A DNA stretch of 64,000 nt. Source: Siphonodentalium dalli. Its lineage: Eukaryota > Mollusca > Scaphopoda > Gadilida > Siphonodentaliidae. The notes beneath the pieces were generated by a model that made no database searches, was not told the origin of the DNA, and worked only from the letters and a program-made list of their open reading frames with translations. The DNA is taken from NCBI GenBank assembly GCA_032622095.1, contig CP136065.1, positions 210,034,151 through 210,098,150 on the forward strand, given 5' to 3'. Shown here one piece after another: positions 841 to 63,293 of the stretch. A program made the position numbers and the translations under genes. Position 1 is the stretch's first letter; every line of letters begins with the position of its first letter.

Positions 841-894
841 TTAAATATGCTGTCTGGTCATATTAAGAGTGGTATATGAGAGAGTCACTTCGCC
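841..894 (-). CDS. EGF ligand, candidate terminal exon
   Basis: A pyrimidine-rich acceptor (CTCCCTATTTTTGTCCTAG) is followed in phase 0 by GEVTLSYTTLNMTRQHI and a TAA stop. Its phase matches exon 5. No domain supports it and it is short, so an alternative last exon outside the window remains possible. Confidence 0.4.
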   Translation of the reverse strand, partial: GEVTLSYTTLNMTRQHI

Positions 895-3800
895 CTAGGA
901 CAAAAATAGGGAGAAGTGGTACAATTTAGGGACAAGATATCTCCCAAGTCACCTCCTAGGCTGGACCCTGGTATCCTTGTAAAAAGGAAAACCTACTACC
1001 ATGCAATAATGAAGCACACAGGTAGATTGTGACATCCAGTATTAACCCTTCCATGACTGGAGCTTCCTGAAATTTTGTGATAACCCTGTGTTAATGCATT
1101 CTCTTTTATATGCTAGTCGCCTATGGGGCGCTTCGCATATATAAGAGAATGCATGGGCCTAACAATATTTACCTTGATCTTGTAAGACAGTGCATTCTCT
1201 TATATATGCAAGGCTCCCTATGGGAGACTCGCATATATAAGAGAATGCACTGGCACAGGGTCTTTAATGCTGCACCAGCGCAGTTCCGTCATGAAAGGGT
1301 TAAATAATCTCAAGGTTCAAGCAATACAGAAACGCTAAATATTTAATTAACACGAACCATGCTTCTAATTTCTAACCAACAACAATCAAACAACTAATTA
1401 TAAAGGCAAAAACAAAACATGAATCAACAAAGCAATAGTAAGATCATTCTTTATACAGAAAACAATGAATACGGTTGTCATGGATACAATCGTCATGGAT
1501 CAAGGGAGAGAACTTACATTTGAATCTGGTGGAATGAGTGAACCGTTACTTGTACATGTAAGTTGGTGGTCTCGACGCTCTTTTCTTTTCCTCCTGTTAA
1601 GAACAAAACATTTATAATCAAACAAACTTAAAGGTACTCAATCCGATTAAGCACCCCTCAATTACTATTTATTTGGCTTCGGGGGTATAAAATATTTGAT
1701 TCGAGTCGAGAAACTAATCCATCAAAGCTCAGAGTGATCAGATATCAATTTTTTTAAATCTATTATTTTTAACTACCTGGAATATTTAGTGGCCCAGTAA
1801 AAGTCGATGAGAAGACAAAATAGCGGATGAAGAAGGATAACTCTAAAATCAAGTGGCTTTTTTATGTCAGATATTTGACAAACCGGCAAAATTTCATTCT
1901 ACAAAATGTTGATAAATAACAGGTTTTGGGCAATTATATATAGTGGACTGTGGTTAGCATTATTTTTGGGCAATTAATCGATTCTGATAACTGAAGCGGC
2001 ATTTTAAAAAATTTGTTGTTGGAATCTGATGATATGGGGACCATCGAATCAGATGGAGTACCTTTAATCCGATAGACTTAAATAATTATAACACAAAATA
2101 ATAACAATTCATCAAAAAGCAAGACACAGAGAGAAGTGATGGCTCTATATATTTCAAATGTGTGTAAGTTGATATCCTTATTTTGAACACTATAATGAAT
2201 CATTTGTATAGTCTAGCTATTATACAGCTAGTATAGTAGTCAAATTAAAGCAACCGCTTATTCTGGTCGTGTATTTTCGTAATTTTAATAAGTAAAAAAA
2301 ATTTGAGGAAAATTTGGAGAAAAAAAACCCAATAAAATGGTTAGGAGGTGGCCCATTTTGGGAGGGGTGATTGGGTTACCGTAAACACAGGTATTATTTT
2401 ATTTAACCTAATCTATTGCCTCTCAGCCCATACAGCATTATAAAGTTGATTACCTTATATGGACTATGACACAGCATATAATCATGGAGCAGAATAGCGT
2501 AAATCCGACCGCTGCAGCAGCTATGCTGGCCGTCTGTATCTTTATATCCTCCTCAACTGAAAGAAATGTCAATATTTGAATTTCAATCAAGCCAAAATGA
2601 GATAGTCATTAGAAAGAATAGTTCTTCGAGTCAGCATATCTCATTGTAGGTCACTACAATCAGGCCTCAAAATATGGTGCTGGACATCTGCAGAATGAGG
2701 TCACCAGAGGGTGAATTTAGTGACGCTACCCCACACAGCGGGTTAGCATAACTAAATTCACCCTCTGGGGACCTCATTTTGCTCGGGCCTCACCTTCTCT
2801 GGAAAGAATCTTTATTATCAAATTATCAAGTTTTTTTAGTTTCTTTTTCTTTTTTAGTTTAGTTTCTCTCTATCCCCAAATTAGCAGACAACACCATCAC
2901 CATCTTCACCAACTGGGAACTTAAATCTGTGTCTTGGTCTCCATAGCAGATGATGCCATGCAGAATGAGGTCCCCAAAGAATGAATTTGGTAATGCTAGC
3001 CCGCTGCGCAGGGTACAGCTTGCAATGCACGAGCAGAGCATCTGAACTGAGTCAGTTTTACCAAATGAGTAATGGATATTGCTAATGTATAATTCACATG
3101 ATCCAAAGGCTTCAGTAAAAAGTAACTATGCATACATGTATAGTCCATTTGCAACAAGTTTGATAAAAGATTAGAGATATTGAGGTTTATCATATTCTGC
3201 ATTAATTAAACAGTCCTTAGTCTGTTAGTTAACTCTTTTGTTACTATATACTCATTAACGAGTCGCTCTCGTAGGCAATGTTGAGATAATAATTTCAATA
3301 AACAGCCAAACACAGTTTATTGAATTTTTTTATATGAAACATATACTACTAATTAATTGGAATCCTTCTCTACTTGTATTATCTGACGTCTGCTTTAATT
3401 TCCTGAACAACCCTCCAGATAAATACCAGTAATAAAGAATTCCAATGTACATGTATACTTTTATAACTGAATTTAAGTAAAGAAAGGATTAACCCTTTGA
3501 GTGCCAGGTCGATTTTTGTATCAACCCATATACCCTGTGCCAATGCATTCTCTTATATATGCGAGTCGACCATAGGTCGCCTCGCATATATAAGAGAATG
3601 CATTGGCCTAACAATTTTTTACAATTTTAATAATTTAATCTTATATTCTTTAACAGACTTATTTTGTAGGTTTAGGGCTGATGAGGTCGGCCCCTGTCAC
3701 TCAAAGGGTTAAGCCAGTAATAATTAACCCATTCATGATGGGAGCCGAGCTGGTGCAGCATTGAAGATCCTGTGCCAGTGTATTCTCTTATACTTGCGAG

Positions 3801-6800
3801 TCTCCCATGGGGAGCCTCCCATATATAATAGAAGAACTGGCTTATACGGTCAAGGTAAATATTGTTAGGCCAATGTATTCTCTTATATATGCGAGGCACC
3901 CTATGGGAGACTCGCATATATAAGAGAATGCATTGGCACAGGGTTTGTGGCCAAATTTCAAGAAGCTCCAGTCAAAGAAGGGTTAATATGTGATTCAGCC
4001 TTACAGACGTTCCTATTTGAGTTATCATACTCACCTGGGAAGAAAATGTCATGGCTAATTCTCTCACATCTGTCACCTTCATATTCTTTGGGACAACTAA
4101 AAAAATGAAATAAAGCTAAATGATATATATGTACTTTCAAAGATCCTAAATAGGAAATAAAAAATTTGGGTTTAGGATTTAATGGCATTTATCAACATTT
4201 CAGTGGCTCAGCTATATTTTTACACTAGCAAGGTGACCCGCCATTGCCCAGATTAAAGTGATGTGGAACACGCTGCTGGGGAAATTTGTAAGGAACAGAG
4301 AACACTCTTGCTCATAGTAGTTTCTAATAAAGTTTATGCACAAATAGGCATCACATATCATCATTATTATTCAAGGATTATATGCAGTAATTGCAGTGAA
4401 TCACATTGGCGGAATTATTGCCGTTTATCTTAATTAATTCGTCCCTAGTTAAGAAGTAGATATTCATAATTGTGCATACATTAGACGTTATAGTAAATGG
4501 TCCCTACTTAATTTCTATAACAGTCAGACATTTGCAAATATAGATACACATGTAGATAACTTTAGTGGAAATCGGCGACAAGATATATTTTTATCAATTG
4601 TGGTGACCCTCTCCCTCCCCATCCCGGACTCAAAATGCACCATTACTTTGGCGTCTTTATACTACATCATTGCATGATTTACTCATATCATGGAAATGAT
4701 TACATATAAGTTTGGTGGAAATGGGTGACCAAACATTTCCCAACCCCGATAGCTTCACTTGAGAAATATTTAACCTGCACCATTACCATCCTCATGAAAG
4801 TTATGCCTAATAAACCCTTCTAGATGGTCCCCACTTAATTTCTATAGCGAAGATAAAAGACAGACATTCACAAATATAGATAGATAGATAGATTAGTGGA
4901 AATTGGTAACAAAACTAATTTTATCAATTATGGTGCATGTTTCCCTTCCCCATCCCTGACTCGAGCGACATCACTTTGGCGTCAGTTAACTACATCATTA
5001 GGCTACTCATACCATGGATATGATTATAAAAATTGATGGAAATTGGCGACAAAAAAATATGATTGATTTTGTTGGCCCTCCCCTCTTTCTGTCCCCGATT
5101 CTGACAGCGTCACTTTTTAACCTGTACCATTATCTTCCTCGTGATAAGTTACCTGTTAGATCCCTTTATAACCCTCTAGATGATCCCCACTTAATTTCTA
5201 TAGCAGAGAGGCAGAAAGATATTCGTTAACAGCAATCATCAATGAGAAAAGGAATGTGAAATTGAAATAGTTCATGTCAACAGTAAACTTCTTTAGTATG
5301 CACATCGACAGACATGAAATTGAAATAGTTCATGTCAACAGTAAACTTCTTTAATATGCACATCGACAGACATGAAATTGAAATCAAACGGAAGTTGAAT
5401 CTAACAAGAACAGTGTTACCAGGTACTTCTTGCCAGGCTATAAATATAATGAATGGCTTTTCAAGTATCAAGGTTACTTTTTTCAGGAATTTAACCCTTT
5501 CAGTGCCAGGGGCCATCTCATTGGCCCTAATTTTTACGGTCTGTCAAATCAGCCCTAAAATTAAAAAAAAAAAATATTTAGATTTTTTTTGGGTTGAATT
5601 TTTTTTGGGGTAAGCTTAAGCATGCTATAGCAAATTTAAAAACAAACTGGATAAAACCTTAGGGGCATGTTATAACTCAAAACTATCACCAAATATTCAT
5701 AGTAATAATTTTGATGCCCATGAAAAACGTAAGATTCCCTGGCACTAAACCTACAAAATAAGTATGTTAAAGAATATAAGAAAAAATTATTAAAATTGTA
5801 AAAAATAATAACAAATGATGAAAAATTGTTAGGCCAATGCATTCTCTTATATATGCGAGGCGACCTATGGTCGACTCGCATATATAAGAGAATGCATTGG
5901 CACAGGGTATATGGGTTGATACAAACATCGGACCTGGCGCTAAAAGGGTTAAAGAACTTGGAATTCATAATGTTCATTCCAGTTTCAATGATGGGTGTAA
6001 AATTGATGCAAAATTGACCTATATATAGATACTTACTTGCATGCCGACTGGCGGAAATCATTGATGATGTAAACATAACACCTTCCACCGTATAGACACG
6101 CTGCTGTCATGTATTCTTTCTCATTGCATGCATGCTGATGGTGTCCTGATGTGATATTATACTCTGTTGTAAGTTCTAAAGGTGATTCTGTACTGGGCTG
6201 GGCTGTAGGGGTTCTACCACACCCATCTACAATTAATAAATGTAAACATTTAAAGCCATATTATGGACTTGTTCGAGTGCGTGAAACTGATAAGTTAGTA
6301 TTCAGGCGCTATATCAACTGAAGGAATGTAGCAAACTACTAACCTATCCAAAAATATCAAGCAAATCGACCGTACCACTCAATAGAAAACATCGACTGAA
6401 TTACTCTCAATTGTCAATATTTACTTCTCGATTCAGGACGCAACTATTGGCGATAAATTAATGGAAATAATTTCGCCATCGAGAGTCACTGTATTTATTG
6501 AAGATATAAGAATGGCGGTTTGTGTTGTCAGTTTGGATATAATATGTCCTACAGTAATGCCCTAATTAATCGACTCCCTAACCACTGCAGAATTATGGGT
6601 AACTTTTCAGGATTTAGTTGGAAATATGGCTTGTTGTATGGCAACAAGTCATATTTCCGACTAAATCCTGAAAAGTTACCCATAATTCTGCAGTGGTTAG
6701 GGAGTCGATTAATTAGGGCATTACTGTACTTTGAGCATGATTATTCTCCATTTCTATTTGATCACCCTACTGGAGTGTTTCACATCACTTTAATATTGTA

Positions 6801-9800
6801 GAATGTCAGAGGTTATTATTGAATACGGAGGTTTAACCCTTCCATGACTGGAGCTTCCTGAAATTTTGTGAAAATCCTGTGCAAATACATTCTCTTATAC
6901 AGTAATGCCCTAAATAATCGACTCCTTAACCACAGCAGAATTATTGGTAACTTTTCAGGATTTAGTCAGAAATATGGCTTGTGCAACAAGACATATCTCC
7001 GATTCTCATAATCACTTTTAAAAGTATACTTTGAAATGGTCTATTACTTATCTGGAGGGGTTTTCAGCAAAAATAAGTAGATGACAGATAATACAATAAT
7101 ACAATTTATTGGAGGGAAATATTCAGATATTAACCCTTTACCCAACAGAAGGGCCCTGTGCCAATGCATTCTCTTATATATGCGAGTCGACCATAGGTCG
7201 CCTCACATATATAAGAGAATGCATTGGCTTAACACATTAAAAATTATAAAATTGTTAAAGAATGTAAGAAAAAAATGGTAAAAAGTGTTAAATTTTTAAT
7301 TTTTTTTAGGCCAATGCATTCTCTTATATATGCGAGGCAACCTATGGTCGACTCGCATATATAAGAGAATGCATTGGCACAGGGCATAACTGTAACTATC
7401 ACAATGTGGTCAAGGAGCCGGTTCCAATGATATCCATATTTGTATGGTTCTATTGAGACAGACCGAAGATATTTTAGGCTGTTGAAGCTTTATTTGGCCG
7501 GTTTTGGCCGGTTTGTTGGGTAAAGGGTTAAGTTCAACAAATGACCCATGTCTGTTGAACTTATTATCAGAACATTTCCTAAGGGAAGAATACATGTACT
7601 CATCAACGAGTATTCATAAAAGAAAGGTTTAACGGTACTCAATCTGATTCGATGGTCCCCATATCATCAGATTCCAACAACAACAACATTTTTAGAAATG
7701 CCGCTTCAGTTATCAGAATCGATTAATTGCCCAAAAATAATGCTAACCACTGTCAACTATACTATAAAATTGCCTGAAACCTGTTATTTATCAACATGTT
7801 GTTCAAATAAATTTTGCCTTATTTATCAACAGAAAGCCTCTTGATTTTTTAGAGTTATCTATCTTCATCCACAATTTAGTCCGAGAACATATTTTTACCC
7901 CCCAAATCCAAATAAATAGTAATTGAGGGGCCCTTAATTGGATTATGCATCTTTAAGAACCAGACTCAGCCTCACTCAGGTTCGTAAATAATGAACTCTG
8001 AACGAGGCAACTCAGTTCTCACCCGGATTGGGCTTAGATGAAAAGGAATTGTGTGCAAATACCTTCAGAGACTCAGAGTCAAAGACCCCTCCTTCTACAA
8101 AATTCCAGCTCTTGAGTCATTTCTTCACCATGACTCAGTTGAATAGTCATGTTATTCCAATTATAGTGAAAAGTCAGAGATCTCCATCTATATGGTGACC
8201 CACACAGATACCTAGTCAAATTGATGACCCAGACGTAGGCCCAGACTAATTGATAACCAATGTCTATAAAATGATGAGTCTTTAATTTGTGGATATGAAA
8301 TCAGTGGAGAAAAGACTTTGATAAGTTTATAAAAATCAGCGATCGTATAGTTCTATACTCTCATTTCACAGTTAGAAACGTCTGAGCGATCAGAAGAGAA
8401 ATGTATTCACTACAATCTACAAAGCGAAAACACCATCCTCAGATAATTCTTCATTTAATTTTTTCTATTATCGTTTATGCATGATCATAACTCAAACATG
8501 ATAGGCTCATTTCCTATGAAATTACAAAATAAACAACGCTGCCTGATATAATAATGCTTCTGATTTTATTTTTTTTTGTGAATTCGTTTGTGGTTTTATT
8601 CATACAATTTTGAAACGAAGCCAAATCCTCAATGATATGACAAATAAACTGAGCTACGTTAAATCGATAACAGCATAGCTAATGCGTTATGAACAGTTCG
8701 TGACATTTATCACTAACGTACGAGAATAGTCGGATATAGTGGTGCTGTCGAACTCGGCCACAAAAATAGAAGGAATATCTTGATATAACTACTAATTACA
8801 AATATAGTTTGAACATACCTGTCATAATATAATCAACATACAGCTCGAAGGACATTAAAACGGATTCATTAACCCTTTACCCAACAGAACGGCCAAAACC
8901 GGCCAGATAAAGCTTCAACAGCCTAAAATATCTTCGGTCTGTCTCAATAGAACCATACAAATATGGATATCATTGGAACCGGCTCCTTGACCACATTGTG
9001 ATAGTTACAGTTATGCCCTGTGCCAATGCATTCTCTTATATATGCGAGTCGACCATAGGTCGCCTCGCATATATAAGAGAATGCATTGGCCTAAAAAAAA
9101 TCTTTTTTTCTTACATTCTTTAACAATTTTATAATTTTTAATTTGTTAAGCCAATGCATTCTCTTATATATGCGAGGCGACCTATGGTCGACTCGCATAT
9201 ATAAGAGAATGCATTGGCACAGGGCCCGGCCCTTCTGTTGGGTAAAGGGTTAATCTGTCCAAATAAGACTTTTTTTTTTACTTGTTTGAATTGGTTTTTC
9301 ATCATATCAGAGTAAGTGCACTGGTATCAGCAGGGATGTGTTGACAGGGATGGGTTTGGAGAATGTCTCACCCCTCCAACTTGGACCAATTTTATGCCTG
9401 ATAACGTTAGTTGGAAATTTCAGACAAAAAGTAGGTTGAAGTTGTTCCAACCAGTATTTAGCGTGAAATTTGTTATTTTTAGGCCAAAATTAAAAAAAAA
9501 TCCTACTTTTTGTCAAATTTTTGCACACAGAAATGGCAATCAGTTGGAAAATAAATTATCAGTTAGAAATAAATTCCCAACCATTTGGGGGTGAATATAT
9601 ACTAAATTGGAAAAACATGTGTATAAAATATTAGATATGAATCGAAGACCCCTTTCCGAAAATGCTTCTATCGATTAATATTGATTATATTTCGAATATT
9701 TTCTGGTCTAAAAACATGTGGGTGTTTAGCTAACAGACAATAACGGTTTCTGCTAACAGAGACCAGAAATTTTATTATGTAATTTTGTCACAAATAAACG

Positions 9801-12800
9801 TTAATTAGACGGATTATCGCTTATAACTATGTAATAAAACAATGCAAACAAATCAATCTGGGACAATTGACGTTCGGATCATAGCTATATGAACACTCTA
9901 ATGATCTCCATTGCTATATGGTATCGCTTGAATTGTCTGTTCTAAAAATAGAACATTAAAGTGTCCCACTTAATCATCTTATTTTATAATAAAATATTTG
10001 AAATAAATTCAATATTAATTGACAGAAACGTTTCCAGGCAAGGATTTCCAACTCATACGTATTATTATTTCATACCCAGAAAACTATCTAAAATTTATTT
10101 AATTAAAGAGATAATCCATCTATAATAGATTCTTAGTTAAAATATCAGTGACAAAAACCAATCCTTCCTGAATCCATCAATGTATATTGTTTCGGTCGAT
10201 GCTGAATCTATGAGAGGAAATATTCATCTCAGAAATCGAGCTAATAGCTAACTAGATTGATTCTGCCAGTACCATGGCTTGCATCACCTACTATTCACCA
10301 TAAAACCAAATGGCTGGCTGTAAAAGACTCTCATAGGAAAAATCGAACATGTGAGTCTAATAAAATTGCTTTAATCATGGGGACTAATTACATCATCTTA
10401 TAAGATTAGGCTATATATTATTGATTCTCGTCTATTTTCATCTCCCATTCATAAATATAACGATCTGTCCTTCACAAGTAGCCTAGCAAAGCTCACTAAC
10501 TATGATGCTGCAATGTCCGTGGGTCCTCATGGTTTATCTATACAGTAATTCTCTAAGAAATCGACTTCTTAACCACAGCAGAATTATGGGTAACTTTTCA
10601 GGATTTCGGCGGAAATATGGCTTGTTGCCATTCATCGGAAAGCTCTCCCAGAGAGCTTTCAGATGAATGGCAACAAGCCATATTTCCAACTAAATCCTGA
10701 AAAATTACCCATTTGGGAGAGCTTTCCGATGAATGGCAACAAGCCATATTTCCAACTAAATCCTGAAAAGTTTCCCATAATTCTGCTGTGGTTAAGAAGT
10801 TGATTACTTAGAGCATTACTGTACTTGAAGAACAAACCAACAGTGCTAAGAAAATTATTACCATAACTTGTGTCAAATGTTCCTAGTAATTCAGAGTAAT
10901 TTAGGACTATTCAAATAATATAATTATTCCAATATTTTCTTGATGAGAAGAAATATTAATGTCGCTTGATGTTTTCAAATATTTGGCCATGATTGAGTTA
11001 ATATATATAACTAGACATGAGTATACAATATCAAAGTATTTTTGATAAACTAAGTTACAAAGGTATAAAACATTTACTCGCGAATTATTGGATTTTACAT
11101 TCTAAAGTTTAATTTCATCTTGGTTATTCCATGATATATAGGAAAGCTATAAGTTTACTAGTGCCTTCAGTAATTCAGTTCTGTACAGGAACTGATTACT
11201 ATTTAGAAAAATGTCACTGATTTCATAAATTAACTATAATAAAATGTTGTTTTTATTTGCATGGTTTAACAATAAAATTTTATTTTCTGAGGCTGTTAAA
11301 ATTCCCAGCAGTGAGCTTTTGTGGTCAGTTGGGTGCGGTTAAACATAGCTATTTTTATTATGTGTTGAGATATTAACAATTTCCACCTTCTCAAAATATT
11401 AATCGTATAATACACCCACTCAAAATGTTATTCTAAGCTTAAAGGGACCCAAGGCACAGTAAATGTACAAATAATATAAAAGTCTGTAAAAATATAACCA
11501 CTAAGAATAACATCACGAAATAGATAAACTTTGTGATAGATTGTTCTCCAATAATGAAATTTTGTGAGTTGAAACCATTGTTATGTAAACAAAGCTGTTA
11601 CAGTGATTTGTCAACTAACATCGCTAATTGTGTAGTAAGTTCAAATTTTTTAATATGCATATTATTTTCAGAATATTTTTCAATTCTTTGACCTTTTCCA
11701 AAGTTTACAGTCAAGTTTTTATTAAACTTTGGTATCTAATTGGACTAATTTGACTTTTATCGGTAATTCCACTTTTACATTTCAATGGTTTGACATGTAA
11801 ATTCTCACTATTCGAGACTTAATAATAATGAAAATAAGAACAAACAACAAAGTCAATATATTTTTTCATGTACAGTAATGCTCTAAGTAATCGACTTCTC
11901 CCTGAGAGCTTTCCAATGAATGGCAACAAGCCATATTTCCGACTAAATCCTGAAAAGTTACCCATAATTTTGCTGTGGTTAAGAAGTCGATTACTTAGAG
12001 CATTACTGTACTTGTCGATGATAGTTATTTTACTGACGTTTATGTTATTTCGCATGAAGACCTCGAGTCCCTTCAATATATATGAGCTTTTTTCAGGGTT
12101 CACAAAATAGAACTACACTACGATAAAATATACACACAATAAATATTTCCCTTAGGCTAAATTTATCTGAAGATCTTGACGTAAGTCCAAAGTGATCACC
12201 GATCCTCAGTGAACGCCTTTTAAAGATTTATCATCCATAAATTTACAAATATAGTACTGCTTATCATTGTGTATGTTATTTAAGGTATTTATTACGTTTG
12301 TGATGTTTAAGTATAGTTTCTCACAGTGACTCGTGTTTTCATTCAAACCAAATGTAATGCTCCAGATCGTACTTACTCGCATATTTTAACATTTTTAGTT
12401 TGTTTTAATCTATTTTAAATTCAAGCAATGTTATCTCAAGCCTGACTGAAATTTCACCCAATTCCAACCTGCCTGAATCATAGTACAATTATGACATTAA
12501 AAACTCTTTAATAAACAATCCGTATTGAAAAATAAATCATTTTCTGTCCACATCAAGCGTTATTTATGCAGTATAATTTCAGAGAGATTTAATTCAGTCT
12601 GACTGAATTAGTTTTCTATATTGAAAATTCCGATGAAATCAGATGAAATTAACTTTTATTGAAAATTCACTTCAATGAAATTTTTGCCAAATTTCACTGA
12701 AATCACCAAATAAAAAAAAAAAAAATTTGATTTCACTGGAATTCAACTGAAATTTCAATGAAATTAAAAAAAATTCACTGAAATCACCAAAAAAAATTAT

Positions 12801-14163
12801 GTCTGTCTTTTATCAGAAGTTAACTCAATATCCAGAATAAGTCAACTCATCCTCCTAACATCTTTTACTGACTTGGGTTTCTTTCCCAGCACATTAATAG
12901 TATATATTTATATAAAATTTATGGAGGTGCTGAGTGTTCATTGCTTCAGTGAGTGCGAACAAATTCTCATTTCTTATCCAAGTGGCCATGTATCGATCAG
13001 AATGAATTGCAACAAGGGTGCTAGCCATATCCCCACTAATGCCGAATTGAATAGTAAGAATGGGTCGAAGCCCTACAATAATTACCCATTGTTGAGATAT
13101 CTTTGTAGATAGACAGAAAATCAACGTTTTAGATAGAATTACAGTAATGCCCTAAATAATCGACTCCTTAACCACAGCAGAGAGCTTTCCGATGAATGGC
13201 AACAAGCAATATTTCTGACTAAAAACTGAAAAGTTACCCATAATTCTGCTGTGGTTAAGGAGTCGATTATTTAGGGCATTACTGTATTTACATTGCTGAG
13301 ATATCTACATGGACGGACAGTATAACTCATATTTCCAAATGAACCAAGAAGGACAATTCAAAAATAGAAAATGTGAATGACATTGGGTCCTTGTTTGACA
13401 GAACTCTGGGGTAGCTTGGCTGCTATACATCAGTACTGAGTACGGACATATAATGTCACGGGACCTCATTCTGCTTAGGCCTCATCTTCTCTCAAAAGTT
13501 TCTTTATTATCAAATTTCTATAGAAACTTCTTCACATAGATTCTATGTCTTGTTTAGTTTAATTTCTCTATATCCCCAAATTGGCAGACGACACATTGCA
13601 TAATCGAGGATCCCAATGGGTGTACATCACAATATTTCACCATTTGGGAACTTCAATCTGAGTCTATGTCTCCCATAGCCAATGAGGCTATACAGAATGA
13701 GGTCCCCAGAGGGCAAATTTAGTGATGCTAGCCCGCTATGTGGGATAGTGTCACTAAATTCACCCTCTGGGGATCTCATTCTGCAAATGACAGGCACACT
13801 AAACTCAGACTTGCCTGTAATAGTAAATCTGAGCCAAAACAGTAGTCATATGGTTTACAAGATCTAATTTTCCATCACTATTAGCATTGATTTACAGACA
13901 AAACTTCAGGGCAAGGCTAAGAAATATTGTCACTGATCAACATATACATGTATGGTCAGCAATCATGCAGACCCACCATAAATTCTTTTTTTCTTGACTT
14001 CAAGGTTTATTGACTCACCTGGATTTTTGGAATAATCACAAGAATTGAATGAGAAACTTAAGTCAAATCCTTCGACCCATCCATCAATGAACAGTAAAAT
14101 AGCCATGAGGAACAACATGAATCGGCAACAAGTCTTAGATAATACTGAAGATAACGTAGTCAT
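841..14163 (-). CDS. ErbB/EGFR-type EGF-like ligand precursor, six-exon gene model
   Basis: Joined exons (minus strand) 14163-14019, 6226-6037, 4096-4035, 2556-2454, 1593-1518 and 894-841 give about 209 residues. Order: signal peptide (hydrophobic core about 16-26), linker with sequon N72-I-T, EGF module with cysteines at 82, 92, 98, 111, 113 and 122, stalk 123-141, membrane helix about 142-166, basic cluster RRKRKERR at 167-174, then a short cytoplasmic tail. Cysteine spacing (9, 5, 12, 1 and 8 residues between) and the GDRC ending fit EGF ligands of the neuregulin/TGF-alpha/Spitz kind. An intron between cysteines 4 and 5 is a known hallmark of ErbB ligand genes. Family knowledge: such precursors are cleaved outside the membrane to release a ligand for an EGFR-family receptor tyrosine kinase. 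Codon phases match at every junction. Which ligand subtype it is cannot be decided from the sequence. No Ig or kringle module was seen. Confidence 0.85.
1042..1303 (+). mobile_element. M2c MITE (TTAA-flanked), intron 5
   Basis: Complete copy, TTAACCCTTCCATGACTGGA to ATGAAAGGGTTAA, with two internal hairpins built on GCATTCTCTTATATATGC. TTAA at both ends points to a piggyBac-type transposase acting in trans (inference). Confidence 0.85.
1518..1593 (-). CDS. EGF ligand, exon 5 (juxtamembrane basic cluster)
   Basis: Acceptor TTGTTCTTAACAG, donor TCAAAT followed by GTAAGT. The single leading base completes Arg from exon 4. The exon continues RKRKERRDHQ and then a polar stretch ending SLIPPDSN in phase 0. 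A positive cluster right after the helix is the expected stop-transfer signal. The other two frames either stop early or do not fit exon 4. Confidence 0.82.
1628..2068. mobile_element. M5 MITE, intron 4
   Basis: Ends TTAAAGGTACTCAATCCGAT and GATGGAGTACCTTTAA are inverted repeats. It contains the family segment GGCTTCGGGGGTATAAAATA and an inner inverted repeat around CCATCGAATCAGAT. It lies wholly between coding exons 4 and 5. Confidence 0.75.
2454..2556 (-). CDS. EGF ligand, exon 4 (stalk and transmembrane helix)
   Basis: Acceptor TTTCTTTCAG, donor ATAAG followed by GTAATC. It begins by completing a Val codon from exon 3 and reads VEEDIKIQTASIAAAAVGF, then about 17 further hydrophobic residues (LFCSMIICCVIVHI). 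It ends in phase 2. The acidic stalk followed by an uninterrupted helix of about 25 residues is typical of membrane-anchored EGF precursors. The donor is weaker than the others (GTAATC). Confidence 0.85.
2655..3020. mobile_element. M4 palindromic element, intron 3
   Basis: Contains the palindrome TGCAGAATGAGG..CC..AGAGGGTGAA with its reverse complement, the TTAGTTTAGTTTCTCT spacer seen in other M4 copies, and a second, incomplete palindrome at the right. The ends are not clear. Confidence 0.65.
3489..3712 (+). mobile_element. M2b MITE, intron 3
   Basis: TTAACCCTTTGAGTGCCAGG at the left, CACTCAAAGGGTTAA at the right. It contains one core hairpin (GCATTCTCTTATATATGCGA with its complement). A shortened version of the 460-bp form at 5491. 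Confidence 0.85.
3724..3986 (-). mobile_element. M2c MITE, intron 3
   Basis: Reverse-oriented copy, TTAACCCATTCATGATGG to AGAAGGGTTAA, with two core hairpins. It sits 12 bp from the M2b copy before it and 49 bp from exon 3 of the EGF ligand. Confidence 0.82.
4035..4096 (-). CDS. EGF ligand, exon 3 (EGF cysteines 5-6)
   Basis: Acceptor TTTTTTTAG, donor CCAG followed by GTGAGT. The 62-bp exon reads CPKEYEGDRCERISHDIFFP and ends in phase 1. CP...Y.GDRC is the classic C-terminal half of an ErbB-ligand EGF module, with the Gly-x-Arg-Cys that family knowledge links to receptor binding. Joining to exon 2 creates the expected C-x-C (C-N-C). Confidence 0.9.
4540..5220 (+). repeat. diverged tandem repeat, period about 350 bp
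   Basis: The segments near 4560-4720 and 4890-5045 share order and wording (GTGGAAATxGGxxACAA, TTTATCAATT, CCCATCCC, ACTTTGGCGTC, ACTACATCATT, CTCAT..CATGGA). A third partial unit starts near 5030. Confidence 0.7.
5261..5384 (+). repeat. 62-bp tandem duplication
   Basis: Two almost identical units of GAAATTGAAATAGTTCATGT followed by CAACAGTAAACTTCTTTA and a CACATCGACAGACAT end, plus a short third start. Confidence 0.9.
5491..5952 (+). mobile_element. M2b MITE, full length, intron 2
   Basis: TTAACCCTTTCAGTGCCAGG to GCGCTAAAAGGGTTAA. The outer arm is followed by an AT-rich spacer, then a complete core hairpin ending TTGGCACAGGGTATATGGGT. Confidence 0.85.
6037..6226 (-). CDS. EGF ligand, exon 2 (linker and EGF cysteines 1-4)
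   Basis: Acceptor TTAATTGTAG, donor GCAA followed by GTAAGT. The first two bases complete an Asp codon begun in exon 1, and the last two are completed by exon 3 to give Asn. It encodes a linker rich in Thr, Pro and Ser with an N-I-T sequon, then HACNEKEYMTAACLYGGRC and onward to cysteine 4 at the exon end. The part LYGGRC matches the usual (hydrophobic)-x-G-G-x-C segment of EGF ligands. An M2b element ends 85 bp beyond the donor. Confidence 0.88.
6550..6728. mobile_element. M1 MITE, near-perfect palindrome, intron 1
   Basis: TACAGTAATGCCCTAATTAA to TTAATTAGGGCATTACTGTA. The arms are about 85 bp each and almost perfectly complementary over their whole length. Flanking TA suggests a Tc1/mariner-type origin. 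Confidence 0.92.
6833..6897 (+). mobile_element. M2c MITE left end only
   Basis: TTAACCCTTCCATGACTGGA through the start of the core hairpin, then cut by the M1 half-element. Confidence 0.75.
6898..7003 (+). mobile_element. M1 half-element
   Basis: Left arm TACAGTAATGCCCTAAATAA through ATGGCTTGTGCAACAAG, then degraded. The right arm is missing. Confidence 0.8.
7015..7625 (+). mobile_element. M2d element split by an M2a insertion
   Basis: Left piece 7015-7129 (GGTCTATTACTTATC..GATGACAGATAATAC) and right piece 7532-7625 (GTTCAACAAATGAC..GAACATTTCCTAAGGG) together match the unbroken M2d copy at 54760-55012. The M2a element lies exactly between them. Confidence 0.8.
7130..7531 (+). mobile_element. 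M2a MITE nested in M2d
   Basis: TTAACCCTTTACCCAACAGA to TTGTTGGGTAAAGGGTTAA, two core hairpins around an AT-rich spacer, and an outer right arm of about 140 bp. The left outer arm is short, so the copy is asymmetric. Confidence 0.9.
7629..7956. mobile_element. M5 MITE, degraded
   Basis: ACGGTACTCAATCTGATTCG at the left and a decayed end GCATCTTTAAG at the right. The inside matches other M5 copies (CCATATCATCAGATTCCAAC; GATTAATTGCCCAAAAATAA). Confidence 0.7.
7957..8868. other. no recognisable feature (intron 1 of EGF ligand)
   Basis: Non-repetitive by eye, AT-rich, no open frame with domain signal. A small CACTCAGG/CTCAGTT-rich stretch lies at 7970-8150. Confidence 0.6.
8869..9253 (-). mobile_element. 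M2a MITE
   Basis: TTAACCCTTTACCCAACAGA to CTGTTGGGTAAAGGGTTAA with both core hairpins and the long outer arm (GGCCAAAACCGGCC..) on the left, the opposite orientation to the 7130 copy. Confidence 0.9.
9254..10540. other. no recognisable gene; one diverged repeat
   Basis: Mostly unique intronic DNA. The part 9990-10125 resembles 55795-55930 (AATATTAATTG..AGAAAC.TTTCC...TTTATTTCATACCC), a diverged dispersed repeat of unknown type. Confidence 0.55.
10541..10822. mobile_element. M1 MITE with an extra arm
   Basis: Starts TACAGTAATTCTCTAAGAAA and ends TTAGAGCATTACTGTA. The stretch GAATGGCAACAAGCCATATT with its downstream CTAAATCCTGAAAA occurs twice in the right half, so there are one left arm, a partial arm and a full right arm. 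Confidence 0.88.
10823..11870. other. no recognisable feature
   Basis: AT-rich, unique by eye, no open frame of note, within intron 1 of the EGF ligand model. Confidence 0.55.
11871..12010. mobile_element. M1 MITE, left arm deleted
   Basis: Left terminus TACAGTAATGCTCTAAGTAA joins directly to the centre (GAGAGCTTTCCAATGAATGG). The right arm is complete to TTAGAGCATTACTGTA. Both ends share the AAGTAATCGACTTC variant. Confidence 0.88.
12577..12800. repeat. low-complexity TCACTGAAATT-rich stretch
   Basis: Degenerate short repeats of the pattern TTCACTGAAATTT/CAACTGAAATTTCA with runs of A. Confidence 0.6.
13140..13286. mobile_element. M1 MITE, left arm shortened
   Basis: TACAGTAATGCCCTAAATAA to TTATTTAGGGCATTACTGTA. 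The left arm jumps from CCACAGCAG to GAGCTTTCCG. The right arm is full. Confidence 0.88.
13459..13813 (+). mobile_element. M4 element, left palindrome truncated
   Basis: Begins at GGACCTCATTCTGCTTAGGC, has the conserved spacer (TTCTTTATTATCAAATTTCT, AATTGGCAGACGACACATTG) and a full right palindrome ending CAAATGACAGGCACACTAAA. Confidence 0.8.
14019..14163 (-). CDS. EGF ligand, first coding exon (signal peptide)
   Basis: Encodes residues 1-48, beginning MTTLSSVLSK, with the hydrophobic stretch FMLFLMAILLF and then a predicted cleavage near GWVEG-F. The exon ends CCAG followed by GTGAGT, a consensus donor, leaving phase 1. I chose the ATG at 14163 because it has A at -3. The in-frame ATG at 14178 has T at -3. 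The bases just before (TTTCACAG, then ACAATG) read as a splice acceptor, so a non-coding 5' exon further upstream is likely (inference). The reading frame runs on past the donor into the intron, which is not coding. Confidence 0.8.
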
Positions 14164-23491: not shown

Positions 23492-23738
23492 CTTGAAATA
23501 GTGTGCCTGTCATTTGCAGAATGAGGTCCCCAGAGGGTGAATTTAGTGATGTTACCCCGCATAGCGGACTAGCATCACCAAATTCACCCTCTGGGGACCT
23601 CATTCTGCTTACACCTCAGCAGAATGAGGTTCCCAGAGGGTTAATTTGGTGATGCTAGCCCGCTATGCGGGGTAGCATCACTAAATTCACCCTCTGGGGA
23701 CCTCATTCTGCAAATGACAGACACACTATTTCAAGTCT
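23492..23738. mobile_element. M4 element, compact double palindrome
   Basis: Outer ends CTTGAAATAGTGTGCCTGTC and GACAGACACACTATTTCAAG. Two full palindromes back to back with almost no spacer. A flanking direct repeat ACAATAGACCTATAAGGGG occurs at 23469 and 23749. Confidence 0.9.
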
Positions 23739-24871: not shown

Positions 24872-27004
24872 GAATCCCCAGATCACATTATATACAACAC
24901 ATTCCATATTATATACCATGAATCCCCAGATCACATTATATACAACACATTCCATATTATATACCATGAATCCCCAGATCACATTATATACAACACATTC
25001 CATATTATATACCATGAATCCCGAGATCACATTATATACAACACATTCCATATTATATACCATGAATCCCCAGATCACATTATATACAACACATTCCATA
25101 TTATATACCATGAATCCCCAGATCACATTATATACAACACATTCCATATTATATACCATGAATCCCCAGATCACATTATATACAACACATTCCATATTAT
25201 ATACCATGAATCCCCAGATCACATTATATACAACACATGCCATATTATATACCATGAATCCCCAGATCACATTATATACAACACATGCCATATTATATAC
25301 CATGAATCCCCAGATCACATTATATACAACACATTCCATATTATATACCATGAATCCCCAGATCACATTATATACAACACATGCCATATTATATACCATG
25401 AATCCCCAGATCACATTATATACAACACATTCCATATTATATACCATGAATCCCCAGATCACATTATATACAACACATGCCATATTATATACCATGAATC
25501 CCCAGATCACATTATATACAACACATGCCATATTATATACCATGAATCCCCAGATCACATTATATACAACACATTCCATATTATATACCATGAATCCCCA
25601 GATCACATTATATACAACACATTCCATATTATATACCATGAATCCCCAGATCACATTATATACAACACATGCCATATTATATACCATGAATCCCCAGATC
25701 ACATTATATACAACACATGCCATATTATATACCATGAATCCCCAGATCACATTATATACAACACATTCCATATTATATACCATGAATCCCCAGATCACAT
25801 TATATACAACACATTCCATATTATATACCATGAATCCCCAGATCACATTATATACAACACATGCCATATTATATACCATGAATCCCCAGATTACTTTATA
25901 TACAACACATTCCATATTATATACCATGAATCCCCAGATCACATTATATACAACACATTCCATATTATATACCATGAATCCCCAGATCACATTATATACA
26001 ACACATTCCATATTATATACCATGAATCCCCAGATCACATTATATACAACACATTCCATATTATATACCATGAATCCCCAGATCACATTATATACAACAC
26101 ATTCCATATTATATACCATGAATCCTCAGATCACATTATATACAACACATTCCATATTATATACCATGAATCCCCAGATCACATTATATACAACACATTC
26201 CATATTATATACCATGAATCCCCAGATCACATTATATACAACACATTCCATATTATATACCATGAATCCCCAGATCACATTATATACAACACATGCCATA
26301 TTATATACCATGAATCCCCAGATCACATTATATACAACACATTCCATATTATATACCATGAATCCCCAGATCACATTATATACAACACATTCCATATTAT
26401 ATACCATGAATCCCCAGATCACATTATATACAACACATTCCATATTATATACCATGAATCCCCAGATCACATTATATACAACACATTCCATATTATATAC
26501 CATGAATCCCCAGATCACATTATATACAACACATGCCATATTATATACCATGAATCCCCAGATCACATTATATGCAACACATTCCATATTATATACCATG
26601 AATCCCCAGATCACATTATATACAACACATTCCATATTATATACCATGAATCCCCAGATCACATTATATGCAACACATTCCATATTATATACCATGAATC
26701 CCCAGATCACATTATATGCAACACATTCCATATTATATACCATGAATCCCCAGATCACATTATATGCAACACATTCCATATTATATACCATGAATCCCCA
26801 GATCACATTATATACAACACATTCCATATTATATACCATGAACCCCCAGATTACTTTATATACAACACATTCCATATTATATACCATGAATCCCCAGATC
26901 ACATTATATACAACACATTCCATATTATATACCATGAACCCCCAGATTACTTTATATACAACACATTCCATATTATATACAACACATTCCATATTATATA
27001 CCAT
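24872..27004 (+). repeat. 48-bp satellite, 44 units
   Basis: Units of GAATCCCCAGATCACATTAT plus ATACAACACATTCCATATTA plus TATACCAT in strict 48-bp register (43 periods from 24872 to 26936) with no indel until a 21-bp repeat in the last unit. Because 48 is divisible by three and the unit lacks stops, long open frames appear on both strands. These are by-products. Unit variants (TTCC/TGCC, ATAC/ATGC, CACATT/TACTTT) change the encoded residue in the longest frame, so no coding constraint is seen. Confidence 0.97.
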
Positions 27005-27182
27005 TTGAAAGAGGAAGCTCTAAAACATTGTATTATCAACTTATCCGGTCGATCAATCTGTGAACATGTTGTTTTTGCCCAGGTTTTGACGTGTGTTCTG
27101 GGCTTAATTTCAATTTAGTCTGTACTGCCGGTCCATTATTCTCAATGGAAGGGGAATAACTCTATCTCTTAGTTGTGAATAC

Positions 27183-27605
27183 ACACGACATAGAGGAGAT
27201 ATGATAGAATGCTACAAAATATTCAATACATACGACCCGGAAGTAGCAAATATACTGACACGGAACTATGAATCCAAAACCAGAGGCCACAACTTCAAGC
27301 TGTTTCTAGAAGGGGCAACCAGAGACACAAGAAAACATACTTTTAGTCAGAGAGTTGTGGAGCCCTGGAACCAACTAGCAGAAGAGGTAGTCAACGCCGA
27401 TACATTAAACCATTTCAAAAATCGACTCGATGATTATTGGAAAGAACTGGAGATGAGACTTGATTTCAAAGCCAAATTAGGGTTGACAAGTTCTCACACG
27501 AGTCGGGCGTTAGATAGACTAAAAAATTTAGGGCCTGAATTTGGTGAATTCGGGGAACTAGACACAGAAGACGTGGACATAGTGGCACAAGCCAGCGTCC
27601 ACTAA
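27183..27605 (+). pseudogene. C-terminal fragment of non-LTR reverse transcriptase
   Basis: An open frame of 140 codons to a TAA stop. It opens HRGDMIECYKIF, then has TFSQRVVEPWNQLAEEVV and HFKNRLDDYW, the conserved C-terminal tail motifs (RGD-x-I-x-x-(Y/F)-K-I; R-V-x-x-x-W-N-x-L; F-K-x-R-L-D) of non-LTR RT ORF2 proteins. The palm domain with the catalytic aspartates and the endonuclease are absent, so it is not active. The frame is undamaged, which suggests a fairly recent insertion. Confidence 0.88.
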
Positions 27606-39437: not shown

Positions 39438-39998
39438 TGTTAACCCTTTCATGACGGGAGATGCGCTGGTGCAGCATTAAACCTTCCATGACTGGAGCTT
39501 CCAGAAATTTAGTGAAAACCCTGAGCTAATGCATTCTCTTATATATGTGAGTCTCCCATAGGGAGCCTCGCATATATAAGACAATACCTTGGCCTAACAA
39601 TATTTACCATGACCTTGTAAGCCACTGGCGAAGGGTCTTCAATTCTGCACCAGCGAAGCTCCCATCATGAAAGGGTTATAGATCCTGTGCCAGTGCATTC
39701 TCTTATATATGCGAGTCTCCCATAGGTTTGCAAGGTCAAGGTAAATATTGTTAGGTCAATGTATTCTCTTATATATGTGGGAGACTTGCATATATAAGGG
39801 AATGCATTGGCACAGGGTTTTCTCAAATTTCAAGAAGCTCCAGCCATGGAAGGGTTAAAGGGATGCAGGGCCTTCAAACAATGTATTCTCTTACATATGT
39901 GAGGCTCGATCCATATGGGAGACTCGCATATATAAGTGAATGCATTGGCACAGGGTTTTCGCAAATTTCAGGAAGCTCAAGTCATGGAAGGGTTAAAG
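39438..39998. mobile_element. cluster of three overlapping M2c copies
   Basis: Termini occur at 39440 (TTAACCCTTTCATGACGGGA), 39481 (AACCTTCCATGACTGGAGC), 39665 (CATGAAAGGGTTA), 39845 (CATGGAAGGGTTAAAGGG) and 39985 (CATGGAAGGGTTAAAGGG). Core hairpins are repeated in both orientations. The last two right ends share the flank AAGGGAxGCA(A/G)GGCCTTCAAA. Confidence 0.75.
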
Positions 39999-50070: not shown

Positions 50071-50287
50071 TACAGTAATGCTCTAAGTAATCGACTCCTT
50101 AACCACAGCAGAATTATGGGTAATTTTTCAGGATTTAGTTGGAAATATGGCTTGTTGCCATTCATCGGAAAGCTCTCAGTGACAGCTTTCTGATGAATGG
50201 CACCAAGCCATATTTCCAACTAAATCCTGAAAAATTACCCATAATTCTGCTGTGGTTAAGGAGTCGATTATTTAGGCCATTACTGTA
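50071..50287. mobile_element. M1 MITE, full length
   Basis: TACAGTAATGCTCTAAGTAA to TTATTTAGGCCATTACTGTA. Arms of about 105 bp meet at CTCAGTGACAGC. The two termini belong to different variants (CTCTAAGTAA versus TTATTTAGGCC). Confidence 0.92.
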
Positions 50288-51099: not shown

Positions 51100-51499
51100 T
51101 TAACCCTTTACCCAACAGAAGGGCCCTGTGCCAATGCATTCTCTTATATATGCGAGTCGACCATAGGTCGCCTCGCATATATAAGAGAATGCATTGGCTT
51201 AACACATTAAAAATTATAAAATTGTTAAAGAATGTAAGAAAAAATGGTAAAAAGTGTTAAAAAAAGATTTGTTTTAGGCCAATGCATTCTCTTATATATG
51301 CGAGGCGACCTATGGTCGACTCGCATATATAAGAGAATGCATTGGCACAGGGCATAACTGTAACTATCACAATGTGGTCAAGGAGCCGGTTCCAATGATA
51401 TCCATATTTGTATGGTTCTATTGAGACAGACCGAAGATATTTTAGGCTGTTGAAGCTTTATTTGGCCGGTTTTGGCCGGTTTGTTGGGTAAAGGGTTAA
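51100..51499 (+). mobile_element. M2a MITE
   Basis: TTAACCCTTTACCCAACAGA to TTTGTTGGGTAAAGGGTTAA. Almost the same structure as 7130-7531. Confidence 0.92.
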
Positions 51500-51689
51500 A
51501 CACCACATGTCAACTGACATGTTTTCAGGGTCGATAGGTGGAAATGGCCAATTAGTGTTTTAATAGAAATAATAGTCAGGTTTAGTTACACACACATGTG
51601 ACATGTGTGCCATTCTGATCCATATATGGCCATTTTGTCATGTTTTTATAAGAAATGAGAATTTGTTCATGCTCACTGAAGCAAGCACA

Positions 51690-52109
51690 TTTGTGACCCA
51701 CCATATCAAATCCAGTCGGAAGTCGGAATTTTTTTTACCCTGTGCCAATGCATTCTCTTATATATGCGAGTCGACCATAGGTCGCCTCGCATATATAAGA
51801 GAATGCATTGGCCTAACAATTTTTTACAATTTTAATAATTTGTTCTTGTATTCTTTAACAATTTTATAATTTCACCCATACAGAGCCCCAGACAAACATG
51901 AGCATATGACACTCTTATAGGTGCTTCTATATATGTGTGGGGCTCCCTGCAGGGTAATGGATGTTTTTTTATTTTATGTCCTAAAAATTGTAAGAAACAT
52001 TTATTTAAAAAACATGATAAAAAATTGTTAGGCCAATGCATTCTCTTATATATGCGAGGCGACCTATGGTCGACTCGCATATATAAGAGAATGCATTGGC
52101 ACAGGGTAA
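51690..52109. mobile_element. M3 element, right end truncated
   Basis: TTGTGACCCACCATATCAAA then TTTTTTTTACCCTGTGCC, a core hairpin, an inner segment (GAGCCCCAGACAAACATGAG, GGGGCTCCCTGCAGGGTAAT), a second core hairpin and CACAGGGTAAAAAC. The final terminal repeat is missing. Confidence 0.82.
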
Positions 52110-63041: not shown

Positions 63042-63293
63042 GCCTGCAAATAGTGTGTCTGTCATTTGCAGAATGAGGCCCCCAGAGGGTGAATTTAGTG
63101 ATGCTATCCCACATAGGGGGCTAGCATCACCAAATTAACCCTCTGGGAAACTCATTCTGCTGAGGCCTAAGCAGAATGAGGTCCCCAGGGGGTGAATTTG
63201 GTGATGCTAGACTGCCGTGCTGGATAGTGTCACTAAATTCACCCTCTGGGGACCTCATTCTGCAAATGACAGACACACTATCTGCAGGCTTGT
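63042..63293. mobile_element. M4 element, compact double palindrome
   Basis: CCTGCAAATAGTGTGTCTGT to CAGACACACTATCTGCAGGC. Two palindromes back to back, as at 23492. Confidence 0.9.

Follow-up and report, generated by a model that had tools for sequence, protein, structure and literature searches.

A predicted six-exon gene for a probable EGF-type ErbB ligand precursor, set among foldback repeats

Two features distinguish ligands of the ErbB/EGFR receptors from other proteins with EGF modules: a splice site that falls between the fourth and fifth cysteines of the module (the C4–C5 site) and a nearby membrane helix; an arginine before cysteine 6 is also conserved among them (PMC1618406). By the classes of PMC4914847, a ligand of the NRG type carries an immunoglobulin (Ig) domain as well as its EGF domain. 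The same survey reported 75 new candidate EGF ligands and found candidates of the EGF type in almost all lineages analysed, the exceptions including cnidarians, a sea urchin and a phoronid. Invertebrate members of the family are hard to relate by sequence, sharing little except the EGF module. Here we describe a predicted gene on the minus strand at positions 841 to 14163 of a 64,000-nucleotide stretch of DNA (GenBank assembly GCA_032622095.1, contig CP136065.1, positions 210,034,151 to 210,098,150 of the forward strand), the whole of which was analysed and is called the window throughout. Its six exons very probably constitute a real animal gene for the precursor of an EGF-type ErbB/EGFR ligand; an animal host is suggested by the gene itself and its introns.

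The original prediction held that six minus-strand exons, joined at GT–AG sites, keep frame across all five junctions, with intron phases of 1, 2, 1, 2 and 0 in order. Rebuilding the gene from the window reproduced this exactly: exons of 145, 190, 62, 103, 76 and 54 nucleotides splice into 630 nucleotides, encoding 209 residues and a stop codon that ends at 841. Exon 1 (14019..14163) carries the ATG, with a purine at position −3, a signal-peptide-like start (residues 1 to ~32) and the beginning of a propeptide. The propeptide continues in exon 2 (6037..6226), which has one N-glycosylation-type site (N72) and supplies EGF cysteines 1–4. A phase 2 intron (4097..6036), containing a foldback element at 5835–5899, separates these from cysteines 5 and 6 (CPKEYEGDRCE) in exon 3 (4035..4096), where the stalk also begins. 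Further stalk and a hydrophobic helix, with TASIAAAAVGF at its outer end, are encoded by exon 4 (2454..2556), the majority of a basic run (RRKRKERR) and a portion of the cytoplasmic tail by exon 5 (1518..1593), and the tail end and stop codon by exon 6 (841..894). AATAAA occurs downstream of the stop codon at 499 and 471.

The donors of introns 1 to 5 read GTGAGT, GTAAGT (preceded by CAA in exon 2), GTGAGT, GTAATC and GTAAGT. Four of the five belong to the GTRAGT class, which makes up 24 of the 3,576 minus-strand GT dinucleotides in the window. The acceptors at 4096 and 894 are strong, with 12 of 14 pyrimidines, and 0.6% of AGs are equally good; those at 2556 and 1593 have 10 of 14 (4.8% of AGs equally good), and the one at 6226 is ordinary, with 8 of 14 (21%). 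In exons 1, 2 and 4 the frame used is the sole stop-free frame (stops per frame, used frame last: 2, 4, 0; 2, 4, 0; and 5, 1, 0), while in exons 3 (5, 0, 0) and 5 (1, 0, 0) one other frame is open too. The first and last exons are the weakest parts of the model and are less well supported than the middle four. For exon 1 this is because it lies 7.8 kilobases (kb) away and rests on its frame, its donor and its signal-peptide look only; for the last exon it is because exon 5, extended past its donor, hits a stop after five codons.

The encoded protein has, in order, a signal-peptide-like start, a propeptide, a six-cysteine module (C82–C122), a short stalk, a helix, a basic run and a short tail. 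Residues 15–33 are hydrophobic (Kyte–Doolittle hydropathy 1.92), come after two basic residues, K10 and R14, and finish near a VEG that stands ahead of a possible cleavage; judged by eye, this N-terminus is signal-peptide-like. The module cysteines occur at residues 82, 92, 98, 111, 113 and 122, leaving gaps of 9-5-12-1-8. EGF modules of ErbB ligands follow the spacing C-X7-C-X4-5-C-X10-13-C-X-C-X8-C, which four of the five gaps fit, the first being two residues longer. An arginine stands directly before cysteine 6 (GDRC). A stalk of ~20 residues joins the module to a hydrophobic helix of ~23 residues (144–166; 19-residue hydropathy up to 2.55), after which come RRKRKERR and a tail of ~35–40 residues. 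Both of the marks by which PMC1618406 sets ErbB ligands apart are found: the predicted splice site separates cysteine 4 (residue 111, exon 2) from cysteine 5 (residue 113, exon 3), and the helix starts at ~144, close to cysteine 6 at 122.

A protein search with the joined exons, a check that the original prediction had proposed, was made against the sequences of solved structures and returned neuregulin-1 as the best match, with an expectation value (E) of 7.8e-5. At E up to 1 there were 20 rows, 15 of them ErbB ligands; three of these are neuregulin-1, and the rest comprise epiregulin, EGF, an EGF/TGF-alpha chimera and a Spitz/LIN-3 construct. Urokinase (two), Notch1, factor IX and an ant venom peptide make up the remaining five rows. 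Only the three neuregulin-1 rows pass E 0.001. With the module alone, 40 rows were obtained, led by neuregulin-1 (E 9.1e-6, 28.8 bits); the next molecule was Notch1 (E 0.0016, 21.7 bits), 7 bits behind, a runner-up to be expected of EGF modules generally. In this comparison, which comprises solved structures only, the module thus matches neuregulin-1 above other EGF modules. Exon 2 alone gave no solved-structure match at E up to 10, whereas the joined protein did match; the neuregulin match therefore requires the exon join. As a control, the reversed protein returned a single unrelated chain (E 0.68). Taken together, the match in sequence, a cysteine spacing that largely fits, the C4–C5 intron and the nearby hydrophobic helix lend good support to the earlier proposal of a membrane-anchored ligand of the EGF/ErbB type.

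We also searched for the split module itself, scanning both the window and 300 dinucleotide shuffles for EGF modules interrupted after cysteine 4 and before cysteine 5 by an intron with GT and AG ends; a strict form of the pattern has GG before cysteine 3 and aromatic-x-G-x-R before cysteine 6. The window contains the strict split pattern once, and none of the 300 shuffles contains it. Its first half alone (C1–C4) was likewise absent from all 300, and exon 2 is the sole match to it in the window.

Several results weigh against the assignment. The second strict half alone appeared in 7 of the 300 shuffles, and the loose split pattern, found once in the window, was equalled by 2 of the 300. The strict pattern was not blind, having been built on this gene's own GG and R, so that its count of zero is in part built in. 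The module resembles the EGF modules of Notch, factor IX and urokinase as well, and its gap between cysteines 1 and 2 is nine residues, against seven in neuregulin-1. From stalk to tail no solved ligand was matched, the only rows there (E 0.93 and 0.96) belonging to one molecule, V-type immunoglobulin domain-containing suppressor of T-cell activation. Pfam gave no family above its cut-off for the joined protein and three sub-threshold rows, of which TM_ErbB1 (E 0.011) and Cadherin_C_2 (0.033) cover the helix and tail and EGF_laminin (0.16) covers the module. Lastly, a whole-protein homologue search yielded 71 word-sharing candidates, none of them at E up to 1; the animal coverage of that database is untested, so this result has little weight.

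The rule of PMC1618406 falls short of proof, because mucins 3, 4, 12 and 17, the meprins and IMP2 also have a C4–C5 splice site near a membrane helix, and their action on receptors is mostly unknown. A protein of such a kind, with a single EGF module and a membrane helix (mucin-, meprin- or tomoregulin-like, or belonging to adhesion or the Notch pathway), would also account for the second place of Notch1 modules in the module search and for the sub-threshold cadherin-tail row on the helix and tail. We nevertheless consider it improbable that the product is one of these rather than an ErbB ligand: neuregulin-1 scores 7 bits above Notch1, the product is small, and no meprin, mucin or follistatin part was found in it by Pfam at E up to 1.

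That the locus is a decayed copy, or that the gene uses different first and last exons and its product ends differently, would fit the 7.8-kb distance of exon 1, the absence of a homologue for it, and the early stop reached when exon 5 is read through. This we regard as very improbable, since the 209 codons contain no stop or frameshift, every GT and AG is intact, and not one of 53 matches to the main foldback core of the window falls in an exon. Least credible, and extremely improbable, is that open stretches of this repeat-rich DNA were joined by chance: the choice among GT and AG sites is wide and shuffled DNA can produce the loose split pattern, but the strict pattern was reached in none of the 300 shuffles, the neuregulin match is lost on reversal, and four of the five donors are drawn from the strand's 24 GTRAGT sites.

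Within the ErbB ligands, the predicted precursor is of the EGF type by the classes of PMC4914847, because no Ig domain was found; the class is predicted from the exons up to 14163, the search having stopped short of any further upstream exons. Pfam gave no Ig row for the joined protein. An Ig exon within intron 1, the layout of neuregulin and vein, was considered and rejected: a crude motif scan brought up six open stretches, none of them convincing by eye.

If transcribed, the gene would yield a type I membrane protein that loses its signal peptide by cleavage and comprises a short propeptide, a single neuregulin-like EGF module, a stalk, one helix and a short basic tail. A protease could then cut the module free, either a rhomboid within the helix or a surface metalloprotease in the stalk, and the freed module would bind and activate the ErbB/EGFR receptor of the animal on nearby cells. 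For release by a rhomboid the sequence offers a weak hint. Rhomboid substrates have, close to where the helix leaves the membrane on the outside, a large hydrophobic residue at P4, a small residue at P1 and a hydrophobic residue at P2′; in Spitz, P1 is A138, which puts the cut ahead of SI, and a change at L135 is disabling (PMC2941825). By our own count on the Spitz stretch printed in PMC8657799, L135 is P4 and I140 is P2′. Here I-Q-T-A-S-I (139–144), at the outer end of the helix, matches the motif in register with the Spitz site, and ASIA stands at the same place in the helix as in that printed stretch.

Among 20,000 shuffles of residues 129–170, the cleavage motif arose at this very position in 7.3% and no more than four residues away in 49.5%. 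When the helix residues were shuffled 5,000 times, 15 shuffles had ASIA close to the helix top, a count for a motif chosen after the fact, and the alignment of the whole helix to Spitz was equalled by 507 of 5,000. We therefore rejected the Spitz-like helix as proof of rhomboid release and kept rhomboid cleavage as a hint only, because both the cleavage motif and the helix alignment are readily reached by shuffles. One form of LIN-3 is rhomboid-dependent (PMC519001). It is doubtful that the gene encodes an ErbB ligand that lacks an Ig domain and combines a neuregulin-like EGF module with a helix that is Spitz-like and cut by a rhomboid; were this so, it would suggest that an early bilaterian ligand had both rhomboid release and a neuregulin-like module.

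The original description of the gene as hidden among miniature inverted-repeat transposable elements (MITEs) is fair, as foldback elements occupy its introns and its exons are free of the main core. That MITE-like core, CAATGCATTCTCTTATATATGCGAG, has 53 matches with at most 3 mismatches in the window, on both strands and mostly as opposed pairs ~40 bases apart (for example at 1092–1252, 3541–3935, 5835–5899, 7162–7376, 9024–9216, 39527–39947 and 51132–52098). A second foldback family, GCAGAATGAGGTCCCCAGAGGGTGAATTTAGTGATGCTA, has 33 matches with at most 6 mismatches, many of which pair up as opposed arms 54 bases apart (2690–2782, 13692–13784, 23516–23711 and 63068–63263, among others). The third, with ends like ACAGTAATGCCCTAA, has 31 matches with at most 2 mismatches, for example at 6551–6727, 11872–12009 and 50072–50286. 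A 40-base tandem repeat (133–441; 7.7 copies, 98% alike) lies ~400 bases beyond the stop codon of the gene.

Farther along the window, a 48-base minisatellite (24872–26980; ~44 copies, 98% alike) can be read without stops in two plus-strand frames and also on the opposite strand; its long open frames arise because the unit length is a multiple of three. Among 13 listed open frames of at least 120 codons, seven were scanned against Pfam at E up to 0.1, with the four minisatellite frames and the frames at 5636 and 48206 omitted. None of the seven gave a family above its cut-off, and there was one weak row, ARL2_Bind_BART (E 0.057, 27108–27602). The open frame at that place (27108–27605, 165 codons), itself with no Pfam family above cut-off, we take by eye to resemble the end of a retroelement reverse transcriptase.

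If expressed, the gene would add to the ErbB-ligand family one clean gene structure with a C4–C5 intron, and it illustrates that a 13-kb gene in exons of 54–190 bases is readable from raw sequence; the view of the pathway is unchanged. Its module is like that of neuregulin-1 (PDB 3u7u, 8u4i and 7mn5) in the six cysteines, the GG before cysteine 3 and the CP.E..GDRC end. Unlike neuregulin-1, the gene has no convincing Ig exon in intron 1, and its tail is short, with no neuregulin domain in Pfam. A single EGF module near a single membrane helix is shared with Drosophila Spitz and C. elegans LIN-3. As in Spitz, the helix starts with ASIA (PMC8657799); unlike the present gene, Drosophila Spitz is without a C4–C5 splice site in the account of PMC1618406. 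C. elegans lin-3 also spreads its EGF module over two exons (5 and 6a) and has its helix in exon 7 (PMC519001), a broad likeness of layout. In domain content the gene also resembles the invertebrate EGF-type candidates of PMC4914847 (Table 2), among them rows for a limpet, annelids, a nemertean and brachiopods, which likewise have one EGF domain and no Ig domain; those candidates carry none to two membrane helices, and one is present here. Since that survey reports 75 new candidates and has rows for molluscs, annelids, a nemertean and brachiopods, the earlier remark that such ligands are poorly catalogued outside insects and vertebrates was overstated. Because EGF-type candidates have already been reported in almost all lineages analysed, the gene described here comes as no surprise; it is one more addition to a family that many animal groups are known to have.

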